Assembly (NCBI GenBank): GCA_021804985.1
Contig: JAJZGD010000005.1
Coordinates: forward strand, 1-42,181
Direction: 5' to 3'
Origin: Planctomycetota bacterium
GTDB lineage: Bacteria > Planctomycetota > Phycisphaerae > WQYP01
DNA length: 42,181 nucleotides
Below, one piece after another: positions 8,511-28,728 of this stretch (within the stretch, counting starts at the first letter, position 1; every line of letters starts with the position of its first letter). Position numbers and translations under genes: made by a program. The notes beneath the pieces are model-generated. The model did not search any database. It worked only from the letters and a program-made list of their open reading frames with translations, and was not told the origin of the DNA.

Positions 8511-10043
8511 ATGCCAACCGGGCCTCGGCCGCTTCCCGCCGCCGCCATCACGATGGCCCTCGCCGCGATGGCATCCGGCGCTGCGGCGCTGGCGGCGACG
8601 GGGGCCAATGCACCATGGACAGGTGCCCTTCCGGTCGTCCGGCCGGCCGCCCATCCCTCGGCGCTAGACGGCCCGCATATCGTCACGACCCGCCACCTGC
8701 TGATGGCGAACCCACCTGTCGTCCATCTGCCGGGCGGCGGGTACATAGCCATGGGTACGCAATACATGGTGGTTTCGCAGGGATCGCTTGCGCGGTGGAA
8801 GCTTATGCCGATCCCGCGCCGGCCCGGGACGGAGGTTTGTATGGGAATAACATGGCTTGGCGGTGGCAGGCGGGCACAGTTTTTTACGCAGTCCACCGGC
8901 AAAAGAACGGCCTGGATCGGGCCGCCCAATGTTTACGGCTGGGGGGTGATGTTGCCGGGGCCAAAATTCAAATACCTTGGTACCATGATGATGTACACGC
9001 GGCCACACGCCTTCCTGAATTCCCGGATCGGCGTGGTCCGGGGCCTGCAGAAACGCAATTTCGTCCTTATCCTGGATGGCGGCGCCCGTTTTCGGCCGCT
9101 GCCCCCGTTGCCCGGCATGGAGAACATAAGCCGCCTGCGATGGCTCTCCAACGCCCGGCTGGCCGTGGTGGCAACCTATCAACATAAACTGCAGGTGATG
9201 ATGTTCCAGCTCACGCCGCAGCTCACGCTGCGGCTGCTTTGGCACCACGCGCCGGTGATGGCGTACCTTGGCAACCACAGGGTGGTGGCCAAATTTCCCA
9301 AGGCATACCAAGTGGACGCGAACAGCGGCGGGTACCATTTGGCCGGGATAACGCCCGGCCTGCTCTGGATAGAGTGGGACAACAACCTCAACGCGGTGAG
9401 CACGCATAATGGGCGCCTGGTGGCGTCAGTGTCGGGAGAGCGCCTGGTTTTTCCGCGGGCCGGCCATTACACCCTGGCGATAAAGCAGAACCTGGCATAC
9501 ACCAGCGAAAAGCCGGGCGGGCATAAGATATTGCCGTGGATGTGGCGCGGGTGGCTGGCGGCGCGCTTGGTGGGTGATCACCTTATCGCCCATGATTACC
9601 TCGGCGGGCGGAAGCAATTAAGAAAAAAGCAGATCTGGACTATCGGCAGCAAGCATATCCATTATGATTTTACGGTGTCCGTGGGAATGGCCAACCAGTA
9701 CCTGAAAACGCGTCGGGGTCTTTTTGTCGTCGGCTTCCGGCATATCGCTCGGATATCCTTTCGGAAAAAAGCCCTGGTTCCGCTGCAACTGCAAACCTTG
9801 GTTCCCTATCGCGGCCCGTGGGATCCGATGAAGCCGTTGCCACCCGCGGTTGAGAAGAAGTTTTTCGCCGTAATCGACAGGCTGCCTCGCGCCGCCGTCA
9901 AGCGCGTGGGAAAGTGGGAAGGAAAGTACAGACGGGTGTCGGCGCTCCGACGCGTGGAAATCCTTATACGGTGGGGCGAAGCCTATTTGAAAGCGCATCC
10001 GCAGCCGCAGCCGGCCACCCGCCGGCATTCGGCTAAGCCCTGA
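8511..10043 (+). CDS. Secreted protein of unknown function, probably propeller-like
   Basis: 510 residues from the ATG at 8511, which has GAAGGAG seven bases upstream. The open frame extends further 5' but without a ribosome site. The N-terminus has a signal-like segment (AAAITMALAAMASGAAALAA). The body is rich in Gly, Trp, Arg and beta-branched residues, with repeats of alternating hydrophobic strands such as ARLAVVATYQHKLQVMMF. This suggests an all-beta, propeller-like fold, but I cannot name a family. It follows the propeller gene by 187 bp and may share its transcript; the two could be partners in an exported system. Confidence 0.6.
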   Translation: MPTGPRPLPAAAITMALAAMASGAAALAATGANAPWTGALPVVRPAAHPSALDGPHIVTTRHLLMANPPVVHLPGGGYIAMGTQYMVVSQGSLARWKLMPIPRRPGTEVCMGITWLGGGRRAQFFTQSTGKRTAWIGPPNVYGWGVMLPGPKFKYLGTMMMYTRPHAFLNSRIGVVRGLQKRNFVLILDGGARFRPLPPLPGMENISRLRWLSNARLAVVATYQHKLQVMMFQLTPQLTLRLLWHHAPVMAYLGNHRVVAKFPKAYQVDANSGGYHLAGITPGLLWIEWDNNLNAVSTHNGRLVASVSGERLVFPRAGHYTLAIKQNLAYTSEKPGGHKILPWMWRGWLAARLVGDHLIAHDYLGGRKQLRKKQIWTIGSKHIHYDFTVSVGMANQYLKTRRGLFVVGFRHIARISFRKKALVPLQLQTLVPYRGPWDPMKPLPPAVEKKFFAVIDRLPRAAVKRVGKWEGKYRRVSALRRVEILIRWGEAYLKAHPQPQPATRRHSAKP

Positions 10044-10130: not shown

Positions 10131-10265
10131 CTCTTATCCAGAGTGCCTGAGGGACGGGCCCGTTGAAGGCACAGCAACCCGTGCGGAACCGCTTGATAGG
10201 CGGGAGCCGTGAACAGGGTGCTAAATCCCTCCCGCTCGCGTTATGCGATCTTGGGGATAGATAAG
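10131..10265 (+). promoter_or_regulatory. SAM-I (S-box) riboswitch aptamer
   Basis: The conserved S-box blocks are readable in order: CTCTTATCCAGAG (10131-10143), GAGGGACGGGCCC with GAAGGC (10150-10170), CAGCAACC (10172-10179) and GGTGCTAAATCC (10217-10228). P1 closes by CTTATC (10133-10138) with GATAAG (10260-10265). P4 fits CCC..TCGC/GCGA..GGG between 10228 and 10256. S-box aptamers bind S-adenosylmethionine and turn off sulfur-assimilation and methionine genes when SAM is plentiful. Here it heads the thrC-like/CysO-like/NIL/ThiF operon, which argues that the operon makes homocysteine or methionine. Confidence 0.93.
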
Positions 10266-10350
10266 TGGTGCACGTTCGCACACCATCCTCGTGCCGTTTC
10301 GTCATCCCCTTATCTTGATTTATCTCCCCGGAAGGCTTTCTGGATTTTTT
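10253..10350 (+). terminator. Riboswitch expression platform with intrinsic terminator
   Basis: The terminator is CCGGAA (10328-10333), loop GGCT, TTCTGG (10338-10343), then A and six T (10345-10350). A competing antiterminator can form between GGGG-AT-AGATAA (10253-10264) and TTATCT-CCCC (10320-10329). It uses the 3' strand of P1 and part of the terminator's 5' arm. SAM binding would stabilise P1 and free the terminator, giving an OFF switch. Confidence 0.75.
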
Positions 10351-19098: not shown

Positions 19099-19169
19099 AG
19101 GGGCCAGGCTTCAGGAGCCTGGCCGGGTAATCGCCGGGTTGCGACGGCGTGATGTTTGGCCAGGCTCCT
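19099..19169. repeat. Dispersed repeat copy 2 with nested hairpins
   Basis: 19113-19160 matches 260-307 at 45 of 48 bases. Here the element is palindromic: AGGAGCCTGGCC (19113-19124) pairs perfectly with GGCCAGGCTCCT (19158-19169) across a 33-base loop. A second hairpin, GGCCAGGCT/AGCCTGGCC, overlaps its left arm. It lies between two convergent operons and could act as a bidirectional terminator or REP-like element. Confidence 0.75.
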
Positions 19170-21318
19170 AAAGTAAACGGTTAACCACCAGTGCCACAAG
19201 CAGAATGACAAACACCCAGGCCGCATACGCGTTTACCACGCTGGGGCGATGAATTCGGGCCAGCAGCCGGGAAATGGCAACGGCACAGATGGCTATGGGC
19301 GCCAGAAAAATGCGATCAAAAAGATACACGTCGGATTGTTCGCGTCGGATGGCGGTGCGAAAATGGCTTTCAACAGCAACTTTGGAATCTTCGCGTTGGC
19401 CGGCGCTGAAAAACGTTTGAAAAATTACCCGCACCGGATTGGAAAAGCCGGTGGCGCTGTAAGTCATCTCGGGCGCCAGATCGCGCATGCCGCCTGCCCA
19501 GGGAGCGCCGATGGCGGCGCGGGACCTTCGGCATACCAACCGAATCATCACCCACGTGGCTGCCATAATAAGGGCCAAAATAATCGCCATATAAAAAGTA
19601 GACATCGCATAGACGACCGGATTGCTTTTTCCGCCCTGGTGCAAAATGACCAATCCACGCGCGGGAATCACGCCAGCCCCCACGCCGGCTCCAATCGTCT
19701 TGAAGCCGGAAATAAACTGCGGCTTAAACGGCGGATTTGGCGGATGCGCGGCGAAGAACGGCGGCACCAACGCAGCGGTTGCATGATGGTCGGCAAGTTG
19801 CGGCACGGCGCGACTGATGCCAGGAATAATCCACGTTGCGCCAACTCCCAATACCAGACAAAGCGCCGCGAGTGCCAGCATCGGCGCTTTTGCGGAAAAG
19901 TCGGCTTCGCGGGCGTCCGCGGCATTTTGCGATCGCGGCATTCCCAGGAAGCTCATGGCGAAGGCCTTGAGAAAGCAGGTGACCGCCAAGGCGGCGCCGA
20001 GCGCCAGCCCCGTGCCGCAAAGGGCAAATATGACGCGGCAAAGCGCGGAAGGAATTTCCTCACTGCGCAGGATATTTTGCAGCGTCAGCCATTCGGTGAC
20101 AAACCCATTGAGCGGTGGCATGGCGGCGATGGCCAGCGCACCGATGAGGAAGGTGGCGCCGATCACCGGCATACGCTTAAGCAATCCACCAAGGCGATTC
20201 ATGTTGCGGGTTCCGACATGTTGATCAATCGAACCGGCGCCCAGAAAGAGCAATGTTTTATACGCAGAATGGTTCAGCATGTGATAAAGCGCCACGATAT
20301 ACGCAATCGACGCGAGCACGGGCAGATGTTCCGCCGTAAATACGAGTGCCATGCCGATGTTGACCGCAATGATCCCCATATTTTCGATGGTGCTGTGGGC
20401 CAGCATTTTTTTTATATCGCTTTCAATGGTGGCAAAAAGAATGCCGATGAGGGCGGAAAGGGCGCCCACGATAAGGACAATCAGGCCGGGGAGTGGGCCG
20501 GTGGATGGCAAAAGGATGGCCACGAAGCGGATGATTCCGTAAATTCCGAAGTTGACCAGCGCGCCGGAAAGAATGGCCGAGGCATTGGCGGGAGCGAGTG
20601 GGTGGGCACGCGGCAACCATGAGCTTACCGGCACCAGACCGGCTTTGGTGGAAAAACCAAAAAACAGCATGAGGAAAAATATCCATCGCCATGGCGCCGA
20701 TACGTTATGCATGGACGCAGCGATAGCGGCAAAGCCAATATGGCCCCCTGAAAAGCCTGCCATGATCAGCAGGGCGACGGTGACAACGATAATGCCGGCT
20801 TCGTTCATCGATAAAAAGAGATAGCCGGCCGGCCCCACCGGCTCGCGGGTGTTCTCCAGCACGATGGTCAGCGAAGCCAAAAGCGACATGATTCGCCAGA
20901 ACAACAGAAACGTTATTACGTCGCCGGCGGCAAGAACCATGAAGCATGTGGGGAGAAGCAGCAGAAAAAAGGATGCGAAATTGCGCGTGCGAAAGTGGCC
21001 CTGATATCGACGCATATAGCCATCTGAAAATAAGTATGCAGGAAGAAAGGAAATGCCGAGCGTAAGGGAAAAAAAGGCGGATAGCCCACCGATATGCAGG
21101 CGCAATGTGCCCAGCAGGGGCAAAGTTACCAGATGGATGGTCAAGCTTGAATGGCCCAGCAGCAGCAGTGCAGAGGTGGCGAGAAGGCACGCCGCGGCGG
21201 CGCTGCCAAAAATGGCCAGGGCGCGTGGCACCAGCGTTTCGGTAAGCAGGGGTAAAACGATGGCCCCCCCGATGGAAAAGGCCAGCCCGAGCAGCAAAAA
21301 TATTTCAGGTACGCTCAT
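19168..21318 (-). CDS. hyfB: HyfB-like antiporter subunit (NuoL/MrpA family)
   Basis: A 716-residue protein with about 15 membrane segments, close in length to HyfB (about 670). The proton-channel signature is clear: GFSTKAGLVPVSSWLPRAHP with its conserved lysine, then DIKKMLAHSTIEN. Its role is to move protons or sodium ions, driven by electron transfer in the peripheral arm. Its start overlaps the small-subunit gene by four bases. It is the last gene of the six-gene operon that begins at 26907. Confidence 0.93.
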   Translation of the reverse strand: MSVPEIFLLLGLAFSIGGAIVLPLLTETLVPRALAIFGSAAAACLLATSALLLLGHSSLTIHLVTLPLLGTLRLHIGGLSAFFSLTLGISFLPAYLFSDGYMRRYQGHFRTRNFASFFLLLLPTCFMVLAAGDVITFLLFWRIMSLLASLTIVLENTREPVGPAGYLFLSMNEAGIIVVTVALLIMAGFSGGHIGFAAIAASMHNVSAPWRWIFFLMLFFGFSTKAGLVPVSSWLPRAHPLAPANASAILSGALVNFGIYGIIRFVAILLPSTGPLPGLIVLIVGALSALIGILFATIESDIKKMLAHSTIENMGIIAVNIGMALVFTAEHLPVLASIAYIVALYHMLNHSAYKTLLFLGAGSIDQHVGTRNMNRLGGLLKRMPVIGATFLIGALAIAAMPPLNGFVTEWLTLQNILRSEEIPSALCRVIFALCGTGLALGAALAVTCFLKAFAMSFLGMPRSQNAADAREADFSAKAPMLALAALCLVLGVGATWIIPGISRAVPQLADHHATAALVPPFFAAHPPNPPFKPQFISGFKTIGAGVGAGVIPARGLVILHQGGKSNPVVYAMSTFYMAIILALIMAATWVMIRLVCRRSRAAIGAPWAGGMRDLAPEMTYSATGFSNPVRVIFQTFFSAGQREDSKVAVESHFRTAIRREQSDVYLFDRIFLAPIAICAVAISRLLARIHRPSVVNAYAAWVFVILLVALVVNRLL

Positions 21319-22115
21319 GGCGACATCTCCGGCGACGTAACTTTGCGCAATTCAGGATCGGCGGGCACCACGGGAATTGCCGGCTCCGGGGGCAGTTCGC
21401 CCTCTCGCCCGGCGAGAATCATCAGGCCGTGCAAAATGGCCAGTGGCGGAGGCGGGCAGCCGGGCACCACAACATCAATCGGAACAATGGGGGGCGAATG
21501 CAGCGCGGTCATCAGGTCGGAGCCAAAGACGCAGCCGCTAATGGCGCAGCTGCCGACGGCGATAACCCATTTCGGATGTGGCATCGCATCATAGGTGGCC
21601 TTGAGGGCGGCCTCCATATGCCGGGTAACCGGCCCGGTCAGCATGAGTACATCGGCGTGCCGTGGCGATGGCGTAATAAAGAATCCGAGCTTGTGCATAT
21701 TGTAAAACGGTTTGCCCAATTGTTTGATTTCATTGAGCACCGAATCGCAGGAGCCCCCATCGACGATCCGAATATGGAGCGATTTTTTAAAGGCCCGGGG
21801 AACCGGTTGAGATCGGTGTGAATCGCTCGGCGGGATCGCCGCAGCCCATTGATAATCATTCTGCCATGCAATGCCGGGTTGCTGCCGGCACGCCTGGCAA
21901 TGCACGCATTGCGACAAAGTGACGGTGGTATCGCGACCGTGGGCACCGATGGCCCCCACCGGGCACATGGCGGCCGCCGCCGATGCAGCCAATTCCGAGT
22001 TCGCCTGTTGCCCGACGGGTCGGCCCGGCGTTGTCCCCGGCGCAATTTCTGGCGACGCCGGGTAGCGCGTGGTGACCACTCTGGAAAACAATCCACTGAA
22101 AAACCAGTTTGCCAT
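21315..22115 (-). CDS. hyfI: HyfI/NuoB-like small subunit with N-terminal ferredoxin half
   Basis: 266 residues from the ATG at 22115, which has GGAG upstream. Residues 51-76 hold a CP (C51) and C70xxC73xxC76, enough for one [4Fe-4S] cluster of a bacterial ferredoxin. The NuoB-like domain follows with C123 (GGSC), C190 (GSCAISG) and C220 (GCPP). The usual fourth ligand of the proximal cluster, the second Cys of a CxxCxxE motif, is Val126 here (C-D-S-V-L-N-E). An extra C195 appears in SGCVF where Gly is common. The subunit would pass electrons to the large subunit. The altered motif may mean a changed or relocated cluster. Confidence 0.85.
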   Translation of the reverse strand: MANWFFSGLFSRVVTTRYPASPEIAPGTTPGRPVGQQANSELAASAAAAMCPVGAIGAHGRDTTVTLSQCVHCQACRQQPGIAWQNDYQWAAAIPPSDSHRSQPVPRAFKKSLHIRIVDGGSCDSVLNEIKQLGKPFYNMHKLGFFITPSPRHADVLMLTGPVTRHMEAALKATYDAMPHPKWVIAVGSCAISGCVFGSDLMTALHSPPIVPIDVVVPGCPPPPLAILHGLMILAGREGELPPEPAIPVVPADPELRKVTSPEMSP

Positions 22116-22155
22116 GATCGCTCCTGCATTGCGGGGCACCCCGCTGCACCAGTGT

Positions 22156-23790
22156 TTACCGATCGGATTCTGCCATGGATAGCCCGAAAGTTGCCATCAT
22201 GATGGGAAAATCCTGGAACGCAAAATTCTCAGCCGCCAGATGAAAGCCGTGCCAGTTGGTAAATGATGGGGTGATGAGCGCGAGCCGGCGCACCGTACCG
22301 GAGGGGGCAAGGTTCACCCCGTGGAATGCCGCCCCGTTTGGCGCCTCGACGGCGCCGAGCGCCTCACCACCAGCCAGGGTCAGTGCGGTCAGTGCATGTT
22401 CACCCGGGGGGATGCTGAGAGCTGTCGCGCGGATAATTTCGGCGGATGAATCAATTTCGTGAAATAGCACGCGAATTCTGGCGTAGCCGTCACCTTCAGT
22501 TTCCAATGCTTCGGGGAAAGCCGGAATATGGTGGTAATAGCCGTAGGGCATGGCGATTCGCAGATCGCCTGCAAGGTTGGAAGCGCGGGCGACCGGGCCG
22601 ACGAGGCCGAGGTTTTTGGTTTTTTCAAGCGGGGTAATGCCCACACCCTCAAACCGATCGAGAAAGCTGCTGGTAAACTGCAATTGGCTGAAAAGCTCGG
22701 CGGCCTGGGAGCGGAGGCGCTGCACTTCATCGGCCAAAAGCTGAAGCTGATCATCCTCAATGTTTCGTCGCAGTCCGCCCGGAATAACCAATCCGTAGAG
22801 GTAGCGATGGCCGCCGATCCGACAGGAAAGGCGAAGCATTTGTTCCTCGAGGATATCGACCTGTGCGGAAGGGACAATCATCCCCGTGGAGTGGCATACA
22901 TCCGATAGAACGCTCAGGTGGTGGCGGATGCGTTCGAGTTCAGCGAGAAGCAGGCGGATGGCTTGTGCGCGCGGCGGCGGATCCACCGCGGTGATTTGCT
23001 CCACAGCTTGAGAAAAGCAGATGGCGTGGGCCACGGCAGAGGTGCCGGAAAATCGCTCGACCTTAAGTAATACCTGCGCGATGGATTGGCCTTCGGCGAG
23101 TTTTTCGACGGCCCGGTATTTGTAAAAGAAACGGGGAATCATGCGGACAACATCTTCACCGACGGTCTCAAGAAAAAACTGCGCCGATTCGGCATAATCC
23201 GAGTAGACCGGCCCGATGGGCATCACAAATGCGCCGGGCGTTTCCAGAATGGTTTCCGGCGACCAGGGCATTGGCGGATCGGCATCCGTAGCCAGCGGCG
23301 CATGGTCGAATTGCCGCCGCATGGGATTAACGCCCTCCCGCCATTGCTCGTGAAGAACAAAATCGCCAAGCTTCGGATGGCTCGAAAAGATGAGCCCAAA
23401 AAGATCTTCAGCCTGCCGTTCATGCCAATCGGCCGCATGCGCAATCGCACTAATGGATGGCACTGTGGGCGCGGCGGCATCAACTCTCACACGTAATTTC
23501 ACACGCAAGTGGCCCGCGGATCGGTAAAACCAATACGCAACGATAAAACTCGACCCCTCCTCGCACGGAATGATCGCCGCAAAGCGAAAGTCAGCATCTT
23601 CCGTCAAGGTGCGGACAACCAGCGGAAGATTTTCAGGCTCACAGCTCAGCACGATCGTGACGAAGTTATCTGCGGCGGCGATTGGAGCGTGCAATGGATC
23701 GGCGGGGGCTTGCCATACGACGCTGTTGCCGAGTGCGGCGGCCAGCGCTGGCAGCGCCGATGGCGTTGCGGACAGGTTTGAATCAATCAT
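22156..23790 (-). CDS. Hydrogenase-4/NuoCD-like large subunit lacking NiFe cysteines (Ehr-type)
   Basis: 544 residues. An N-terminal NuoC-like part (about 40-165; ADWHERQAEDLFGL) is fused to a NuoD/HycE-like part. The L1 motif RxCGxC of NiFe hydrogenases reads R246-F-S-G-T-S251 in the sequence KVERFSGTSAVAHAI. The C-terminal DPCxxC motif is also missing; the chain ends FGLSMAESDR, closer in style to complex I. All four metal-binding cysteines are thus gone and no hydrogenase activity is expected. The family precedent is the energy-converting hydrogenase-related (Ehr) complexes. The gene lies between the two antiporter-type subunit genes and the small subunit, with 33 bp to the upstream gene. 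Confidence 0.9.
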   Translation of the reverse strand: MIDSNLSATPSALPALAAALGNSVVWQAPADPLHAPIAAADNFVTIVLSCEPENLPLVVRTLTEDADFRFAAIIPCEEGSSFIVAYWFYRSAGHLRVKLRVRVDAAAPTVPSISAIAHAADWHERQAEDLFGLIFSSHPKLGDFVLHEQWREGVNPMRRQFDHAPLATDADPPMPWSPETILETPGAFVMPIGPVYSDYAESAQFFLETVGEDVVRMIPRFFYKYRAVEKLAEGQSIAQVLLKVERFSGTSAVAHAICFSQAVEQITAVDPPPRAQAIRLLLAELERIRHHLSVLSDVCHSTGMIVPSAQVDILEEQMLRLSCRIGGHRYLYGLVIPGGLRRNIEDDQLQLLADEVQRLRSQAAELFSQLQFTSSFLDRFEGVGITPLEKTKNLGLVGPVARASNLAGDLRIAMPYGYYHHIPAFPEALETEGDGYARIRVLFHEIDSSAEIIRATALSIPPGEHALTALTLAGGEALGAVEAPNGAAFHGVNLAPSGTVRRLALITPSFTNWHGFHLAAENFAFQDFPIMMATFGLSMAESDR

Positions 23791-23823: not shown

Positions 23824-25272
23824 TTACGGGTGGGGCCCGGATAAAACCGCTGCAGCATGCGAAAGCAGCTGTTGGAGCGTGGCAGGAATAAACCCACCGA
23901 ATACAACCACCGGGACGGCGGCGAGTGCGACTGCGGCCAGCGACGCGGGCGCCATGCGACGCGGAACGCCTTGCGCCGCATCCGGTGCACCCGTCATCAT
24001 GCCGAATAGATGATAGGTTATGGCGCAAAACGAAACGATCATGAAGCCGCCGAGCAATGCAAATACCCAGATATGATGGCTCGCCAATCCGGCCTTGAGA
24101 ATGCCGAGCTCGCTTAAAAATAGCGCGAAGGGAGGAGCCCCCGCGACCGCCACGCCACTGAGCATCATCAAGCCGCCGACCAGGGCGCTTCGCGAAAACA
24201 GGCCATGGACGTTGGCGATTCGGCGCTCGCCGGTCAACACAAACACCAGGCCGGCACAGTAAAAAACGAGTGGCTTGGTTAACGCATGGGTCATGATCTG
24301 CCAGATTGCCGCGGTGTGGGCGGCTGCGGCCGAAAGCGACCCCACCGTCAGGATGATTCCGGCATTTTCAATCGTCGAGTAGGCGAAGAGTCGCTTGTAT
24401 TCATGGGTTTGAAGCATCAAAAAAGCCGCCCCGCCAGCCGAAACCAATCCGATCACCATCAGCCACGCGCCGGAATGCACGCCGTGTGCCCCAAGCAATG
24501 AAAAATGTAATCGCAGAAGCACGTACGGAATCAGGGCGCTCTCAAGAATGGAAAGCATGGCACACACCGCAAACGGTGCACGACTATACGTATCGGGCAG
24601 CCACGCGTGAAACGGAACCAGTGCCGCTTTGGTGGCAAAGCCGATCAACACCAAAACGAATCCCAGGCTCATGATTGGCACGGGTGCATCAGCCGCCACA
24701 GCGCCGACGGCGCTAAAAGTGAAATGAACCGCCCCGCCGCGCGTGGCGCCCCAATAAAGCAGGAGAATGCCCAGCAGCGCTATGGCCGCCCCGAGTATCG
24801 TCAACATCGCATATTTCCATGCGGCCTCGAGCGCAGCGGGTGTACGATCGAACGAAACCAGAAAGACAGAAAATAGGGTGGTGAGGGTAAGTGCCAGCCA
24901 GATCAGCGCGATTTCGCGCATCAGCAGAACTGAAATTCCGGCGAATAAAAAAAGATTGAACCAGATAAAATATCGGCGCTTGGCAGAATCGGGCGCCTCA
25001 TCCGACTCAAGCATGCCGACGGAAAACAGTAATGCGATCGCCCCGGCAAAGGTTTCCAACATCAGCACCAGGCTGCTCAGCGGGTCGGCCCCCACCCAAT
25101 GATCAATGGCGGTCGCCGTGCCCCCGTGCAAAAGGCCCATCGCCACGCAACTCGCCACCGCAAACGCAGCACACCCAAATAAAAAGGATACATATCCGGC
25201 GATGCGCCACGGAAGAAATTCGCACACGCTTGCGGCGATTATCGGCAGTAAGAGAACCATCCATATCAGCAT
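23824..25272 (-). CDS. hyfF: HyfF-like antiporter subunit (NuoN/NuoM family)
   Basis: 482 residues from the ATG at 25272, which has AAGGAG upstream; a TTG three codons earlier is too close to that site. About 14 membrane segments carry GFATKAALVPFHAWLPDTYS with the key lysine and EYKRLFAYSTIENAGII. This is the second ion-translocating subunit of the complex. It is five bases from the HyfE-like gene, indicating tight translational coupling. Confidence 0.92.
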   Translation of the reverse strand: MLIWMVLLLPIIAASVCEFLPWRIAGYVSFLFGCAAFAVASCVAMGLLHGGTATAIDHWVGADPLSSLVLMLETFAGAIALLFSVGMLESDEAPDSAKRRYFIWFNLFLFAGISVLLMREIALIWLALTLTTLFSVFLVSFDRTPAALEAAWKYAMLTILGAAIALLGILLLYWGATRGGAVHFTFSAVGAVAADAPVPIMSLGFVLVLIGFATKAALVPFHAWLPDTYSRAPFAVCAMLSILESALIPYVLLRLHFSLLGAHGVHSGAWLMVIGLVSAGGAAFLMLQTHEYKRLFAYSTIENAGIILTVGSLSAAAAHTAAIWQIMTHALTKPLVFYCAGLVFVLTGERRIANVHGLFSRSALVGGLMMLSGVAVAGAPPFALFLSELGILKAGLASHHIWVFALLGGFMIVSFCAITYHLFGMMTGAPDAAQGVPRRMAPASLAAVALAAVPVVVFGGFIPATLQQLLSHAAAVLSGPHP

Positions 25273-25277
25273 GGGTC

Positions 25278-25958
25278 TCAAATCTCCTTGAGTTCTGAAA
25301 GCGAACCAACCTGCGTGCTGCCCGATACGCGATGAATCTGCGTACTAAGTACGCCCAGCACCAGCACAATCATCGCGACATCAAAGCAGGCCGCCAATTC
25401 GCCGATAAGCGGGAAGTTCGGGGCGATGGCATCACCGGCAAAAAACGCCCCATTTTCAATGGCCAACAGGCTCAGAAGCTGCGGCAGCGCCTCGCGCCGC
25501 ACGGTGATGGTGTATACCGCGATTAATACCGCAGAGAATCCGATGGGAAGGTCGTCCTGAATGAAGGTCGATGTATGGGCAAGCAGCGGCGCGGTGACAA
25601 AATAGCCCACCCCGCAAAGAATTAGACCGATTAACAGTGATACGGGCACGCTGCGTACCTGCTGGAGTTCACGGCGGGCGATCATTTCGCGGCGGACGAT
25701 GCGCCGAATCAAAAATGGTATGAGCAGCACCTTGGTGATCAGTCCAATGGCGACCACGATCCAGAGATTGGAGTTGCCGGTGGAAGCCGCCATGATGGCC
25801 GCACCGAGGACCAAAAATATCGACTGTATGCGATAAATCTTAATGCAGCCGATGGCTTGCGATGCGGCGAGCAGGCCGAAGCTGCATAAAAGAAAAATGC
25901 CTGCGACGAGTGAATTGACCTCCGCCGCCCATGGTCCGTCCATCCAATGCATGATCAT
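25278..25958 (-). CDS. hyfE: HyfE-like membrane subunit (NuoK-related)
   Basis: 226 residues with about seven membrane segments, the usual length for HyfE. Conserved charged residues sit in membrane stretches, for example LLSLLAIENGAFFAG, which matches the NuoK-type glutamate region. It is part of the membrane arm that links electron transfer to ion movement. It starts four bases after the HyfC-like gene. Confidence 0.88.
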   Translation of the reverse strand: MIMHWMDGPWAAEVNSLVAGIFLLCSFGLLAASQAIGCIKIYRIQSIFLVLGAAIMAASTGNSNLWIVVAIGLITKVLLIPFLIRRIVRREMIARRELQQVRSVPVSLLIGLILCGVGYFVTAPLLAHTSTFIQDDLPIGFSAVLIAVYTITVRREALPQLLSLLAIENGAFFAGDAIAPNFPLIGELAACFDVAMIVLVLGVLSTQIHRVSGSTQVGSLSELKEI

Positions 25959-25962
25959 CCTT

Positions 25963-26907
25963 TTACAGCATGCGCGTCAGGAGCGCGGTCACGGCAATAA
26001 CAAATGCCAATCCGAGAAAGCCCGTGATCCGAAACAGCCGAAGCTTCGCCAGTGCGGTTTCTACAATCACAATCACCACCACGGCTGCGAGCATTTTGAT
26101 AAAGATCAGTGGAATCGCGCTAAGCACATCGAGAAAGCCATGGCCGGATGCAAGGCCCCAGGGTGCAATCAGGACGTTGAGCAATATGCATAAGAGAACG
26201 ACAAACTTCATGGCGCCGCCCCATTTGATCAGTGCCATGGAGGGGCCGCTGTATTCCAGGGCCTTGGATTCGTCGATCATGGCCAATTCAAAATGGCCCG
26301 AGGGATTATCGACTGGAATTTTTCCGGTTTCGGCAAGTATCAACATAAAAAAGGCGACGCATATCAGCAGGTGCGCCGGAGCGAAAAAGTTGCCAGCCGG
26401 ATGAAGCCACCGCTGCTGGACGATGTAAGGAATAGTTGAATTGGCGACGAAACAGACGGTAAAAAATACGGTCATAAAAACGGGCTCGCCGAGAAAACCG
26501 ACCATCCGGGTGCGGCTCGCTCCCATGGCGCCGTAGGGGTTGGCGGTGTCGATCGCAGCCATGCCATAGAAAAAGCCACCAAGGGCAAGCACAAAACCTC
26601 CGCCGAGCATGTCACCCATGAAAGCAAAGAAAAGGGGATACGTAGTTAAAACGGGGATCAGCAGTGTGACTAAAATGGGCGACGCAAAGATAACGTAGGG
26701 CGCAAAACGGAAAACCCAGGTGCTGTGGGATGAAATAACCCGATCCTTCCCCATCAGCTTGAAAATATCGCGATACAGCTGCCACACGCTTGGCCCCTGC
26801 TTGCCGGCCATCCGCTCTTTAAGCCGATTGAGAATCCCCACAACCAGCGGTGAGAGAAACAGCACCACCAGCACCTGGAGCAGATTAAAAGCGATCATCC
26901 GCAGCAT
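25963..26907 (-). CDS. hyfC: HyfC-like membrane subunit (NuoH-related)
   Basis: 314 residues, eight or so membrane segments. NuoH-type signatures are present: ERMAGKQGPSVWQ near the N-terminus and IPVDNPSGHFELAMIDES followed by EYSG in the middle. It anchors the hydrophilic arm to the membrane and forms part of the quinone- or ion-coupling channel. First confident gene of the operon; a possible small gene upstream overlaps it by 13 bases. Confidence 0.92.
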   Translation of the reverse strand: MLRMIAFNLLQVLVVLFLSPLVVGILNRLKERMAGKQGPSVWQLYRDIFKLMGKDRVISSHSTWVFRFAPYVIFASPILVTLLIPVLTTYPLFFAFMGDMLGGGFVLALGGFFYGMAAIDTANPYGAMGASRTRMVGFLGEPVFMTVFFTVCFVANSTIPYIVQQRWLHPAGNFFAPAHLLICVAFFMLILAETGKIPVDNPSGHFELAMIDESKALEYSGPSMALIKWGGAMKFVVLLCILLNVLIAPWGLASGHGFLDVLSAIPLIFIKMLAAVVVIVIVETALAKLRLFRITGFLGLAFVIAVTALLTRML

Positions 26908-27149
26908 AGGCGGTCCGATCCTTTCGATATCACCATTGCCAGAGCGATGGAAGCGGGCGCGCGTTGAGCCAGACGCCGCGTATGACCCCGTGGAGGCATG
27001 GCCGCACCGAAAAGCACGCCAGCCAGAAGCGAACCATCGTTCACGCCGTGGCCTGCATAGATGGCATGGCGTATTTCGCTGGCAACAGTGGCGACACTTT
27101 GGTGGGCCTGCGGGTTGGGATGGAGGCGGGAGAAGAGAACGATGCCCAT
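26895..27149 (-). CDS. Possible small protein ahead of the hyf-like operon
   Basis: 84 codons starting at an ATG with an excellent ribosome site (AGGAG, five bases before) and ending 13 bases inside the HyfC-like gene. The product has a moderately hydrophobic stretch (SLLAGVLFGAA) and an Arg-rich end, and resembles nothing I know. Third codon positions are GC-rich, as expected for coding sequence. It could be a leader peptide, a small subunit or a chance frame. Confidence 0.35.
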   Translation of the reverse strand: MGIVLFSRLHPNPQAHQSVATVASEIRHAIYAGHGVNDGSLLAGVLFGAAMPPRGHTRRLAQRAPASIALAMVISKGSDRLCCG

Positions 27150-27187
27150 CAGAACTCCTGCGTCAGGCCTCGCCAAAGCGACCTGCC

Positions 27188-27210
27188 AATTATGTGCGGG
27201 CCACATAATT
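27188..27210. promoter_or_regulatory. Perfect 9-bp dyad upstream of the hyf-like operon, possible operator
   Basis: AATTATGTG and CACATAATT are perfect inverted arms around CGGGC. The AT-rich arms stand out in GC-rich DNA. The dyad lies 39 bases upstream of the small gene and about 280 upstream of the HyfC-like start. A two-fold-symmetric regulator may bind here. The TGTG/CACA spacing is too short for a classical CRP site. Confidence 0.45.
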
Positions 27211-27347
27211 TCAGGAGTCATTGGCTTGGCGCTGCGCCGAAGCGGTTCACAGGGCAGACTCCACTGCCAAAGCGGTTTATATATCGCCGACACGCCTTCG
27301 TCAATAAAAATAATATTACGGCCGCTGTTATTTAACTTCCGGCAGCG

Positions 27348-27375: not shown

Positions 27376-27380
27376 GTCTG

Positions 27381-27440
27381 CCATGGGTGATGGAGTTCAC
27401 CCGAACTGTCCCGCTGTGTGCGGGTACTGATGACTCCTGG
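27381..27440 (+). promoter_or_regulatory. Fluoride (crcB-motif) riboswitch aptamer
   Basis: The conserved blocks GGTGATGGAGTTCACC (27386-27401) and CTGATGACTCCT (27426-27437) match the crcB motif, with a CCCGC/GCGGG stem between them. These RNAs bind fluoride through magnesium ions and switch on defence genes. The next gene is the fluoride channel FluC/CrcB, which confirms the assignment. Confidence 0.95.
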
Positions 27441-27463
27441 CGGCGCTGCCGGGGGTGCAACTT

Positions 27464-27503: not shown

Positions 27504-27914
27504 GTGGCGACTTTTGGGACCAAGGCTTTGAAAAACGTTCTGCTGATGTGTGCATCCATCGGAATTTTTGGATTTTTCGGAGCGCTCACGCGGTATGGCG
27601 TAAGCCGGCTCTTTGCCCGGTTTTCCCCGCTGTTTCCCATCGGCACGCTGGTGATTAACCTGACGGGGGCTTTTTTTCTCGGCTGGTTCTTAACCTGGGC
27701 GCAAGCCCGAACAGGTGTTTCCAATGAGGTGCGGCTGGGCATTGCGGTCGGCTTTGTGGGGGCCTACACCACCTTTTCAACTTATATGTATGAATCGGAT
27801 CGACTGCTAAGCGATGGTGAAGGTATGCGGGCGATTTTCTACATTCTCGGCAGCGTGATGCTGGGCTTATTGGCGGTACGATTGGGAATTATCCTCGGCC
27901 AGCGGATGAGCTGA
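27504..27914 (+). CDS. crcB: Fluoride channel FluC/CrcB
   Basis: 136 residues from a GTG at 27504. A TTG at 27528 is also possible and would give a start nearer the usual KNVLL beginning. Four membrane segments and the FluC signatures are present: GALTRYGVSRLF, GTLVINLTGAFFLG with the pore Asn, and GAYTTFSTYMYE. It works as a double-barrelled dimer in the inner membrane and lets fluoride out. It is under the fluoride riboswitch and followed 22 bp later by the DUF190 gene. Confidence 0.95.
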   Translation: MATFGTKALKNVLLMCASIGIFGFFGALTRYGVSRLFARFSPLFPIGTLVINLTGAFFLGWFLTWAQARTGVSNEVRLGIAVGFVGAYTTFSTYMYESDRLLSDGEGMRAIFYILGSVMLGLLAVRLGIILGQRMS

Positions 27915-27936: not shown

Positions 27937-28728
27937 ATGATGGGCGAAAAAATTCTGCTGCGCCTTTTCATGCGTAGCGGCGATCTGTATCACTTTGGCC
28001 CGGCCTATGAGCGCATCGTCAGCGAAGCTTCGAGGCAGCGGCTCGCGGGCGTTACCGTTCTGCGTGGTATTTTAGGCTTCGGGGCCCGCGGCACGCTGAG
28101 ACCCTCAAACCTGCGGCTGATGGGCGATGCACCGGTCATCGTGGAATGCATTGATACAGCCGCCAAGATTAATACCTTCTTAAACGACATCTCCGCCAAA
28201 ATATTCAGACATGGAACCGCAACGCTGGAGCGTGCGGGCGTGGTGCTGTACCGGGCCAAAGATGCGGGGCGCCATGATGAGATTCAGCTGCTTGGCGGTA
28301 TTACCCCCCTGAGCACCCTGCCGGAAATACAAGGAGCCATCCACATGCATACCAACTCCACCGGTCTGCTGCTGCGGATATTCATTGGCGAATCGGATCG
28401 ATACCAAAAACGCCCCCTGCATGAGGCCATCGTCGAAAAGGCGCGTGAACTCGGGCTAAGCGGCGCCACGGTGCTGCGCGGTTCCATGGGATTCGGCGCC
28501 AACAGCGTTTTGCACACCAATAAGGTGCTTGTGATGTCGTCGGATTTGCCGATCGTGATCGAAATCGTCGATAGCCGGCAACAAGTGGAAAAATTGCTTC
28601 CGGCCCTTGATGAAATGGTTCGCGATGGAATGATCACTATGGAAGAAGTGCAAGTGGTCGCCTACCGACATGATCCCGAGAGCCCACCTGCGGCGCCCGG
28701 CCCCGGCGATAACCCCAGGAGCCTTTAA
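27937..28728 (+). CDS. Tandem DUF190 protein
   Basis: 263 residues made of two DUF190 (PII-like) units, at about residues 5-110 and 142-248. The repeat is visible in LLRLFMRSGDLYH..VTVLRGILGFGARG against LLRIFIGESDRYQ..ATVLRGSMGFGANS. Single DUF190 genes often accompany crcB. Here the two units are fused, so one chain could mimic a dimer. A role in fluoride response, perhaps ligand sensing, is inferred from context. The tail of about 15 residues is Pro- and Gly-rich. Confidence 0.88.
   Translation: MMGEKILLRLFMRSGDLYHFGPAYERIVSEASRQRLAGVTVLRGILGFGARGTLRPSNLRLMGDAPVIVECIDTAAKINTFLNDISAKIFRHGTATLERAGVVLYRAKDAGRHDEIQLLGGITPLSTLPEIQGAIHMHTNSTGLLLRIFIGESDRYQKRPLHEAIVEKARELGLSGATVLRGSMGFGANSVLHTNKVLVMSSDLPIVIEIVDSRQQVEKLLPALDEMVRDGMITMEEVQVVAYRHDPESPPAAPGPGDNPRSL

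Follow-up and report, generated by a model that had tools for sequence, protein, structure and literature searches.

Energy-converting-hydrogenase-related (Ehr) complexes, encoded by ehrABCDLS, were reportedly described by Coppi in 2005 and by Marreiros et al. in 2013. We know of no physiological role found for them in twenty years. A further puzzle dates from 2010, when Weinberg et al. reported the crcB motif upstream of genes 'encoding formate hydrogen lyase' (PMC2864571). A review from 2024 repeats the riboswitch-linked formate hydrogen lyase (FHL) and treats it as a metabolic shift. According to this review, fluoride enters cells as HF and acidifies the cytoplasm, Fluc channels depend on membrane potential, and Na+/H+ antiporters are the next commonest genes linked to the riboswitch (PMC11139923).

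The window (the whole stretch of DNA analysed, 42,181 nucleotides from a Phycisphaerae MAG) carries a six-gene operon on the minus strand in the order C-E-F-L-S-A. It encodes the C subunit (HycD/HyfC/NuoH-like, 314 aa, 25963 to 26907; NADHdh, E = 6e-30), the E subunit (HyfE-like, 226 aa, 25278 to 25958; PRK11492, E = 1e-20, under cut-off), the antiporter-like F subunit (HyfF-like, 485 aa, 23824 to 25281; Proton_antipo_M, E = 1e-39), the large subunit L (NuoC+NuoD/HycE-like, 544 aa, 22156 to 23790), the S subunit (NuoB/HycG-like, 21315 to 22139; Oxidored_q6, E = 3e-23) and the antiporter-like A subunit (HyfB-like, 716 aa, 19168 to 21318; PRK06521, E = 7e-150, under cut-off). Judged from the alignment of relatives, S probably starts at ATG 22115. 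A possible leader ORF of 84 aa (26895 to 27149, minus strand), whose stop overlaps the start of C, may not be a gene, and conservation of it was not seen. None of the matches of the operon proteins to individual NCBIfam families of hydrogenases and complex I reaches the curated cut-off of its family, which places the proteins in the superfamily but in none of those named families. The nearest relatives of the operon are labelled Planctomycetota/Phycisphaerae, one of them from a cave sample (SulCav), and six intact ORFs in conserved order are found in at least 11 genomes.

Neither the operon nor its conserved flanks contain the NADH module NuoEFG. MrpC/E/F/G-like genes were not seen in the cluster, which, given the presence of L and S, is not a stand-alone MrpA-G set. 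The sequence-only reading had proposed to look for co-occurring electron-input genes; the operon flanks show no conserved gene for a dedicated donor, and a donor linked to the operon was rejected. Since NuoL/M-like genes lie on other contigs of the same genome, we make no claim that complex I is absent from it; a second NuoD beyond L was not found.

L matches NuoC/NuoD/HycE in profile and structure-sequence searches (Complex1_49kDa, E = 1.3e-32). In the structure-sequence search, HycE of the E. coli FHL (7z0s) matches L with E = 1e-46, and MbhL and MbhJ of P. furiosus are among the best matches. Aligned with HycE, the NiFe ligands C241, C244, C531 and C534 correspond to S248, S251, S538 and E541 of L, so that none of the four cysteines is present, as the sequence-only reading had stated. 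The same alignment bears out both motifs given there: the L1 site (R246-S251, 23038 to 23055, minus strand; sequence of the region ERFSGTSAVAHA) reads RFSGTS in place of RxCGxC, and the C-terminal DPCxxCT(E/D)R is replaced by FGLSMAESDR (F535-R544, 22159 to 22188, minus strand). With this sequence L stops, without an extension of the kind cut off by hydrogenase maturation proteases. Cysteine pairs elsewhere in the chain at the metal site had been named as the case against such a loss. The alignment reveals no relocated site: L has only the five scattered cysteines 50, 76, 258, 299 and 323, with no CxxC pair among them. The four cysteines are also missing from every complete relative in the window clade (49-62% identity), and their loss is thus neither chance nor an assembly error. 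HypD was not found in the window's own genome (92.7% complete); the control search finds HypD in E. coli.

Glu201 in the N-terminal loop of L is retained, as in Ehr complexes and hydrogenases. The suggestion that a quinone might serve as acceptor found no support at residue level, because His224 of NuoCD corresponds to Ala200 and Gly249 takes the place of the RMDY-motif Tyr in the alignment. As the NuoD ligands are absent, a quinone pocket in L was rejected.

The main feature, which the first reading of the DNA had missed, is a predicted fluoride riboswitch in front of the operon. The aptamer (RF01734, 27205 to 27277, minus strand) reaches 33.8 bits, falling 0.2 short of the curated cut-off of 34 (E = 1.6e-7 genome-wide), and most relatives have a homologous aptamer that passes this cut-off. 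A custom model built from the relatives' aptamers gives the operon aptamer 51.7 bits; this model includes the window's aptamers, among them the operon aptamer itself, and its E-values are rough. A second, divergent fluoride riboswitch (27377 to 27446, plus strand) lies upstream of crcB and, with 36.5 bits, passes the curated cut-off. The whole genome (3.1 Mb) contains no fluoride aptamers besides these two at this locus, and the linkage is common to all testable relatives; a riboswitch placed here by chance was therefore rejected. The pseudoknot strands covary across the aptamers (GGAGT/ACTCC, GGCAT/ATGCC, GGTGC/GCGCC). The window also holds a SAM riboswitch (10131 to 10267, plus strand, 67.7 bits).

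Sequence complementarity indicates a possible expression platform (27154 to 27218, minus strand). The aptamer segment ACTCCTG (27218-27212) can pair with CAGGAGT (27160-27154), which contains the Shine-Dalgarno sequence before ATG 27149. In the relatives L125, L047, L056, L088 and L127, terminator-like hairpins occur at the equivalent place. Both arrangements predict an ON switch: the operon aptamer would bind fluoride, and the genes would be expressed with fluoride bound.

The relatives were gathered by similarity to L and not by the presence of a riboswitch. In spite of this, all 23 loci of the fluoride clade with upstream sequence carry the riboswitch (22 operons plus a solitary L gene). 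Their hosts are Planctomycetota, deltaproteobacterial MAGs, Burkholderiales, one Mycobacterium and one Alicyclobacillus; several loci come from MAGs, the plasmid loci from complete records. Scanned with the same RNA model, none of 29 classic Ehr, FHL and hydrogenase loci has the riboswitch, and the sole trace among the classic Ehr loci (L054; 17 bits, E = 0.005) is off the expected place. Selection bias behind the linkage was rejected, as the collection was protein-based and classic Ehr loci scanned alike gave none. Within the window's GTDB family, compared by reading, no riboswitch lies on the same contig as any of the 19 classic Ehr large-subunit genes. For another phylum (297 genomes, likewise compared by reading), six of six testable window-type operons lie less than 10 kb from a riboswitch; of about 135 further L homologs listed for these genomes, not one is that close to any of the roughly 150 riboswitch matches listed.

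In the L tree, the fluoride-linked sequences included form one 16-row clade (support 100/99), separate from classic Ehr and from the four-Cys hydrogenases. It joins an 18-row Ehr clade at a support of 82/87, the Ehr clade's own support being 82/66. Mycobacterium branderi sits on a long branch inside the fluoride clade, and its placement is less sure. Members of a Planctomycetota family (L058-L066, family f50), which branch basally in the Ehr-like clade, keep the four NiFe cysteines (RICGVCAASHA ... ELCYSCTDL) and may represent a hydrogenase near the point where Ehr arose. Group-4-like large subunits from six further genomes (L111-L117; G581, G470, G430, G506, G603 and G432) have in-frame TGA codons at both L1 cysteines (RIUGIUGYIHST, one RIUGICG; tail DPCFSCTER), which makes them candidates for hydrogenases with two selenocysteines in L1.

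On the opposite strand, the window carries a CrcB/FluC fluoride channel (136 aa, 27504 to 27914, plus; PF02537, E = 1e-27), followed by a double DUF190 protein, a recurrent companion of crcB (263 aa, 27937 to 28728, plus; PF02641, E = 4e-62, two stretches). The riboswitch-led clusters of the relatives encode CrcB, DUF190, enolase, metallophosphoesterase, dynamin-like GTPase, pyrophosphatase, MutS and UspA. In a deltaproteobacterial locus (L126), the riboswitch-led cluster also includes a Na+/H+ exchanger gene, placed between C and the gene for DUF190-CBS. Here and in L125, the gene that immediately follows crcB encodes DUF190 joined to four CBS domains (L126:1449-2729, L125:2583-3863). A Burkholderia multivorans plasmid has ten fluoride riboswitches in 31 kb with the Hyf-like complex in the middle of the island; this region (L092, 184000-219500) also encodes two enolases, two pyrophosphatases, two MutS, CrcB and a CLC-type channel. 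On a plasmid of Alicyclobacillus sp. ALC3, a Cys-less L (L090:8752-10248) has its own fluoride riboswitch (8546-8606) in a cluster with at least six fluoride riboswitches, CrcB and DUF190.

When HF comes in and F- leaves through CrcB, protons in effect leak into the cell and membrane potential is spent as well. A complex moving cations outward would make up for both. The riboswitch, the crcB-DUF190 pair, the half-ferredoxin and the altered proximal and pump residues described below make a part in the fluoride response the likely role of the complex. The sequence-only reading had assumed a generic ion pump.

Our preferred reading, to which we give a probability of roughly 0.55, is that the operon encodes a fluoride-induced, ferredoxin-fed, ion-translocating non-hydrogenase complex of an Ehr-like clade, which would defend membrane potential and pH. 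Fluoride would enter acid-living cells as HF and acidify the cytoplasm, and the exit of F- via CrcB would drain the membrane potential. Binding of fluoride to the riboswitch would turn the C-E-F-L-S-A operon on. Electrons from a soluble donor might then enter via the half-ferredoxin of S, cross a re-ligated proximal cluster and reach an acceptor in the vacated NiFe pocket of L. Cations would be driven through A and F by the energy gained or by an ion gradient already in place, and with membrane potential and pH restored CrcB could export F-.

A possible but rather unlikely alternative is that redox coupling has been lost and that the complex, induced by fluoride, works as a secondary transporter (cation/H+ antiport, Mrp-like) in which L and S serve as scaffold or sensor. 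That Na+/H+ antiporters are already known partners of the riboswitch (PMC11139923) is in line with this, as is the Alicyclobacillus plasmid, where no S gene was found near the riboswitch-led L, only C-like fragments at about 13.1-13.4 kb.

The S subunit bears on both readings. Its N-terminus contains a half-ferredoxin (21888 to 21965, minus strand; CP at residue 59 and CxxCxxC at 78/81/84), whose four cysteines are enough for one [4Fe-4S] cluster and are conserved in nearly all clade members. This suggests that clusters are still needed and speaks against the secondary transporter. One deltaproteobacterial S (L042) is without these cysteines, and its close relatives L040 and L041 retain them. 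The proximal (N2-like) cluster may be held by C131, C198, C203 and C228 (21456 to 21749, minus strand, by alignment). In the window's subclade the second cysteine of the usual CxxC is lost (residue 134 is Val in the window) and a cysteine is gained five residues past the third ligand. C203 aligns with Cys120 of E. coli HyaA (GSCAISGC in S, GTCASWGC in HyaA), an extra proximal-cluster ligand of oxygen-tolerant hydrogenases (PMC10583674). Going by the geometry of HyaA Cys115/Cys120, the proximal cluster of the window has probably been re-ligated rather than lost. A gain at a proven ligand position exactly where one ligand was lost is a further point against a transporter without redox coupling. 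Deltaproteobacterial and Burkholderiales members keep all four proximal cysteines. The secondary transporter draws support from three loci (L072-L074) that keep three of four and have His or Asn at the position of the fourth, and from the fluoride-linked M. branderi (L048, pJCM12687), which has none of the four and retains the half-ferredoxin cysteines. The same pattern (none of four, half-ferredoxin retained) is seen in a related non-fluoride complex of Allomeiothermus silvanus (L051, pMESIL01), a locus with no fluoride riboswitch.

As to the membrane subunits, called intact by the sequence-only reading, this holds for gene content (C, E, F and A are full length) but not for residues. In C, HycD R108 and E130, part of the E-channel of FHL (PMC9474812), correspond to G111 and T133. 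The whole fluoride clade has Gly or Ser at the first position and Thr, Ser or Ala at the second; in the Ehr/FHL set, the Arg108 equivalent is kept in all loci but one and the Glu130 equivalent in all. This clade-wide loss favours the secondary transporter, and NuoH likewise lacks both equivalents. The TM5 Glu (NuoM E144) is replaced by Arg142 in A and by Thr132 in F (codon about 24888-24886), a loss confined to the window's subclade, the one with the moved proximal Cys, and unfavourable to antiport as well. Mutation of this residue in HycC (E135) did not lower H2 production of the E. coli FHL (PMC9474812), and TM5 Glu may thus matter less than assumed. TM7 Lys and TM12 Glu are retained in both A and F, and TM8 Lys of A is Asn256, an Asn found clade-wide.

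With the NiFe/quinone site gone, the E-channel interrupted and the proximal cluster lost in some lineages, it is also conceivable, if doubtful, that a branch of the complex I superfamily was rebuilt as a fluoride-switched ion transporter (or a fluoride/proton-linked antiporter) that has ceased to rely on electron transfer through L. Redox-free transport of this kind stays under consideration on account of what C, A, F and M. branderi have lost. That the half-ferredoxin is conserved and that a cluster ligand has moved so exactly speaks for a continuing importance of electron transfer in most members, and for this reason the ferredoxin-fed pump is our first choice. The riboswitch, the known fluoride genes next to it, the absence of HypD, the half-ferredoxin cysteines and TM7 Lys/TM12 Glu weigh in its favour. 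Against it weigh the loss of TM5 Glu in A and F of the subclade, the clade-wide loss of the HycD R108/E130 equivalents, the altered proximal ligands (all lost in M. branderi) and the lack of a linked donor gene.

A classic Ehr complex, i.e. a redox-driven pump for ions that hands its electrons to quinone and has merely come under a fluoride switch, is improbable. The subunit set is identical to that of Ehr and Glu201 is kept, but the His and Tyr of the quinone site are not conserved, the sequences form a distinct clade with permuted gene order, and C and A show clade-specific losses. It is very unlikely that the complex is a decaying relic kept by chance in a fluoride locus. The unusual ligand and TM5 losses and the long tree branches would fit, but the six ORFs are intact and ordered alike across genomes, 66 columns of L are invariant even when the M. 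branderi and Burkholderia members are included, the riboswitch is retained in all testable cases, and the changes are shared, not random. A real FHL or group 4 hydrogenase serving a shift to fermentation is hardly credible in spite of the subunit homology and of its naming among riboswitch genes (PMC2864571, PMC11139923), since neither the window nor any fluoride-linked relative seen has any of the four NiFe ligands, HypD and a C-terminal extension are missing, and no fdhF or hycI is linked, both of which real FHL loci have.

The 'FHL' genes of Weinberg et al. are likely the window clade, if not proven so gene by gene, and for all cases examined here, judged by the missing cysteines, the label 'formate hydrogen lyase' is wrong. 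We found no literature noting the missing NiFe ligands in the riboswitch-linked 'FHL' genes, and a search by the Ehr name gave no direct study of the window clade. Two puzzles are joined here, the role of Ehr and an 'FHL' that has stood under a fluoride riboswitch since 2010 and was read as a fermentation shift. As the riboswitch-controlled genes encode a Cys-less complex, its likely job would be the defence of membrane potential and pH under HF stress. A complex annotated as hydrogenase or FHL thus probably helps cells to survive fluoride and acid as an ion pump or transporter. Ehr-like complexes thereby gain a testable inducer and phenotype, and the clade offers natural complex I variants that have lost the substrate site, the proximal cluster and key channel residues but retain the rest.

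Compared to known systems, the complex shares its superfamily with MBH, MBS and Mbx of P. furiosus, but has no MbhA-G-like subunits and differs in its ligand losses. With complex I it shares the homologous core (NuoBCDH LMN), L being a fusion of NuoC and NuoD like E. coli NuoCD, whereas the NADH module is absent from the cluster and the quinone-site His and Tyr from L. FHL and hydrogenase 4 (Hyc, Hyf) have homologous L, S, C, A, F and E subunits; unlike these, the window system has no NiFe ligands, FdhF, HycH, HycI, Hyp or HyfD, and carries a single half-ferredoxin fused to S instead of the separate HycF. The Ehr type proposed by the sequence-only reading applies in the broad sense: six homologous subunits, a large subunit without NiFe cysteines and relatedness in the L tree. 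It does not extend to the gene order or the residues. Nearly all classic Ehr loci collected here are ordered A-C-E-F-L-S (one, L049 from Rhodococcus, is S-A-C-E-F-L), whereas all window-clade operons have C-E-F-L-S-A. The Ehr tail SFNLSYxGHDL contrasts with GLSxAExDR, the window clade lacks the HycD R108/E130 equivalents and TM8 Lys of A, and its proximal cluster is altered. Finally, none of the Ehr loci scanned has the fluoride riboswitch, which precedes the genes in all testable members of the window clade.
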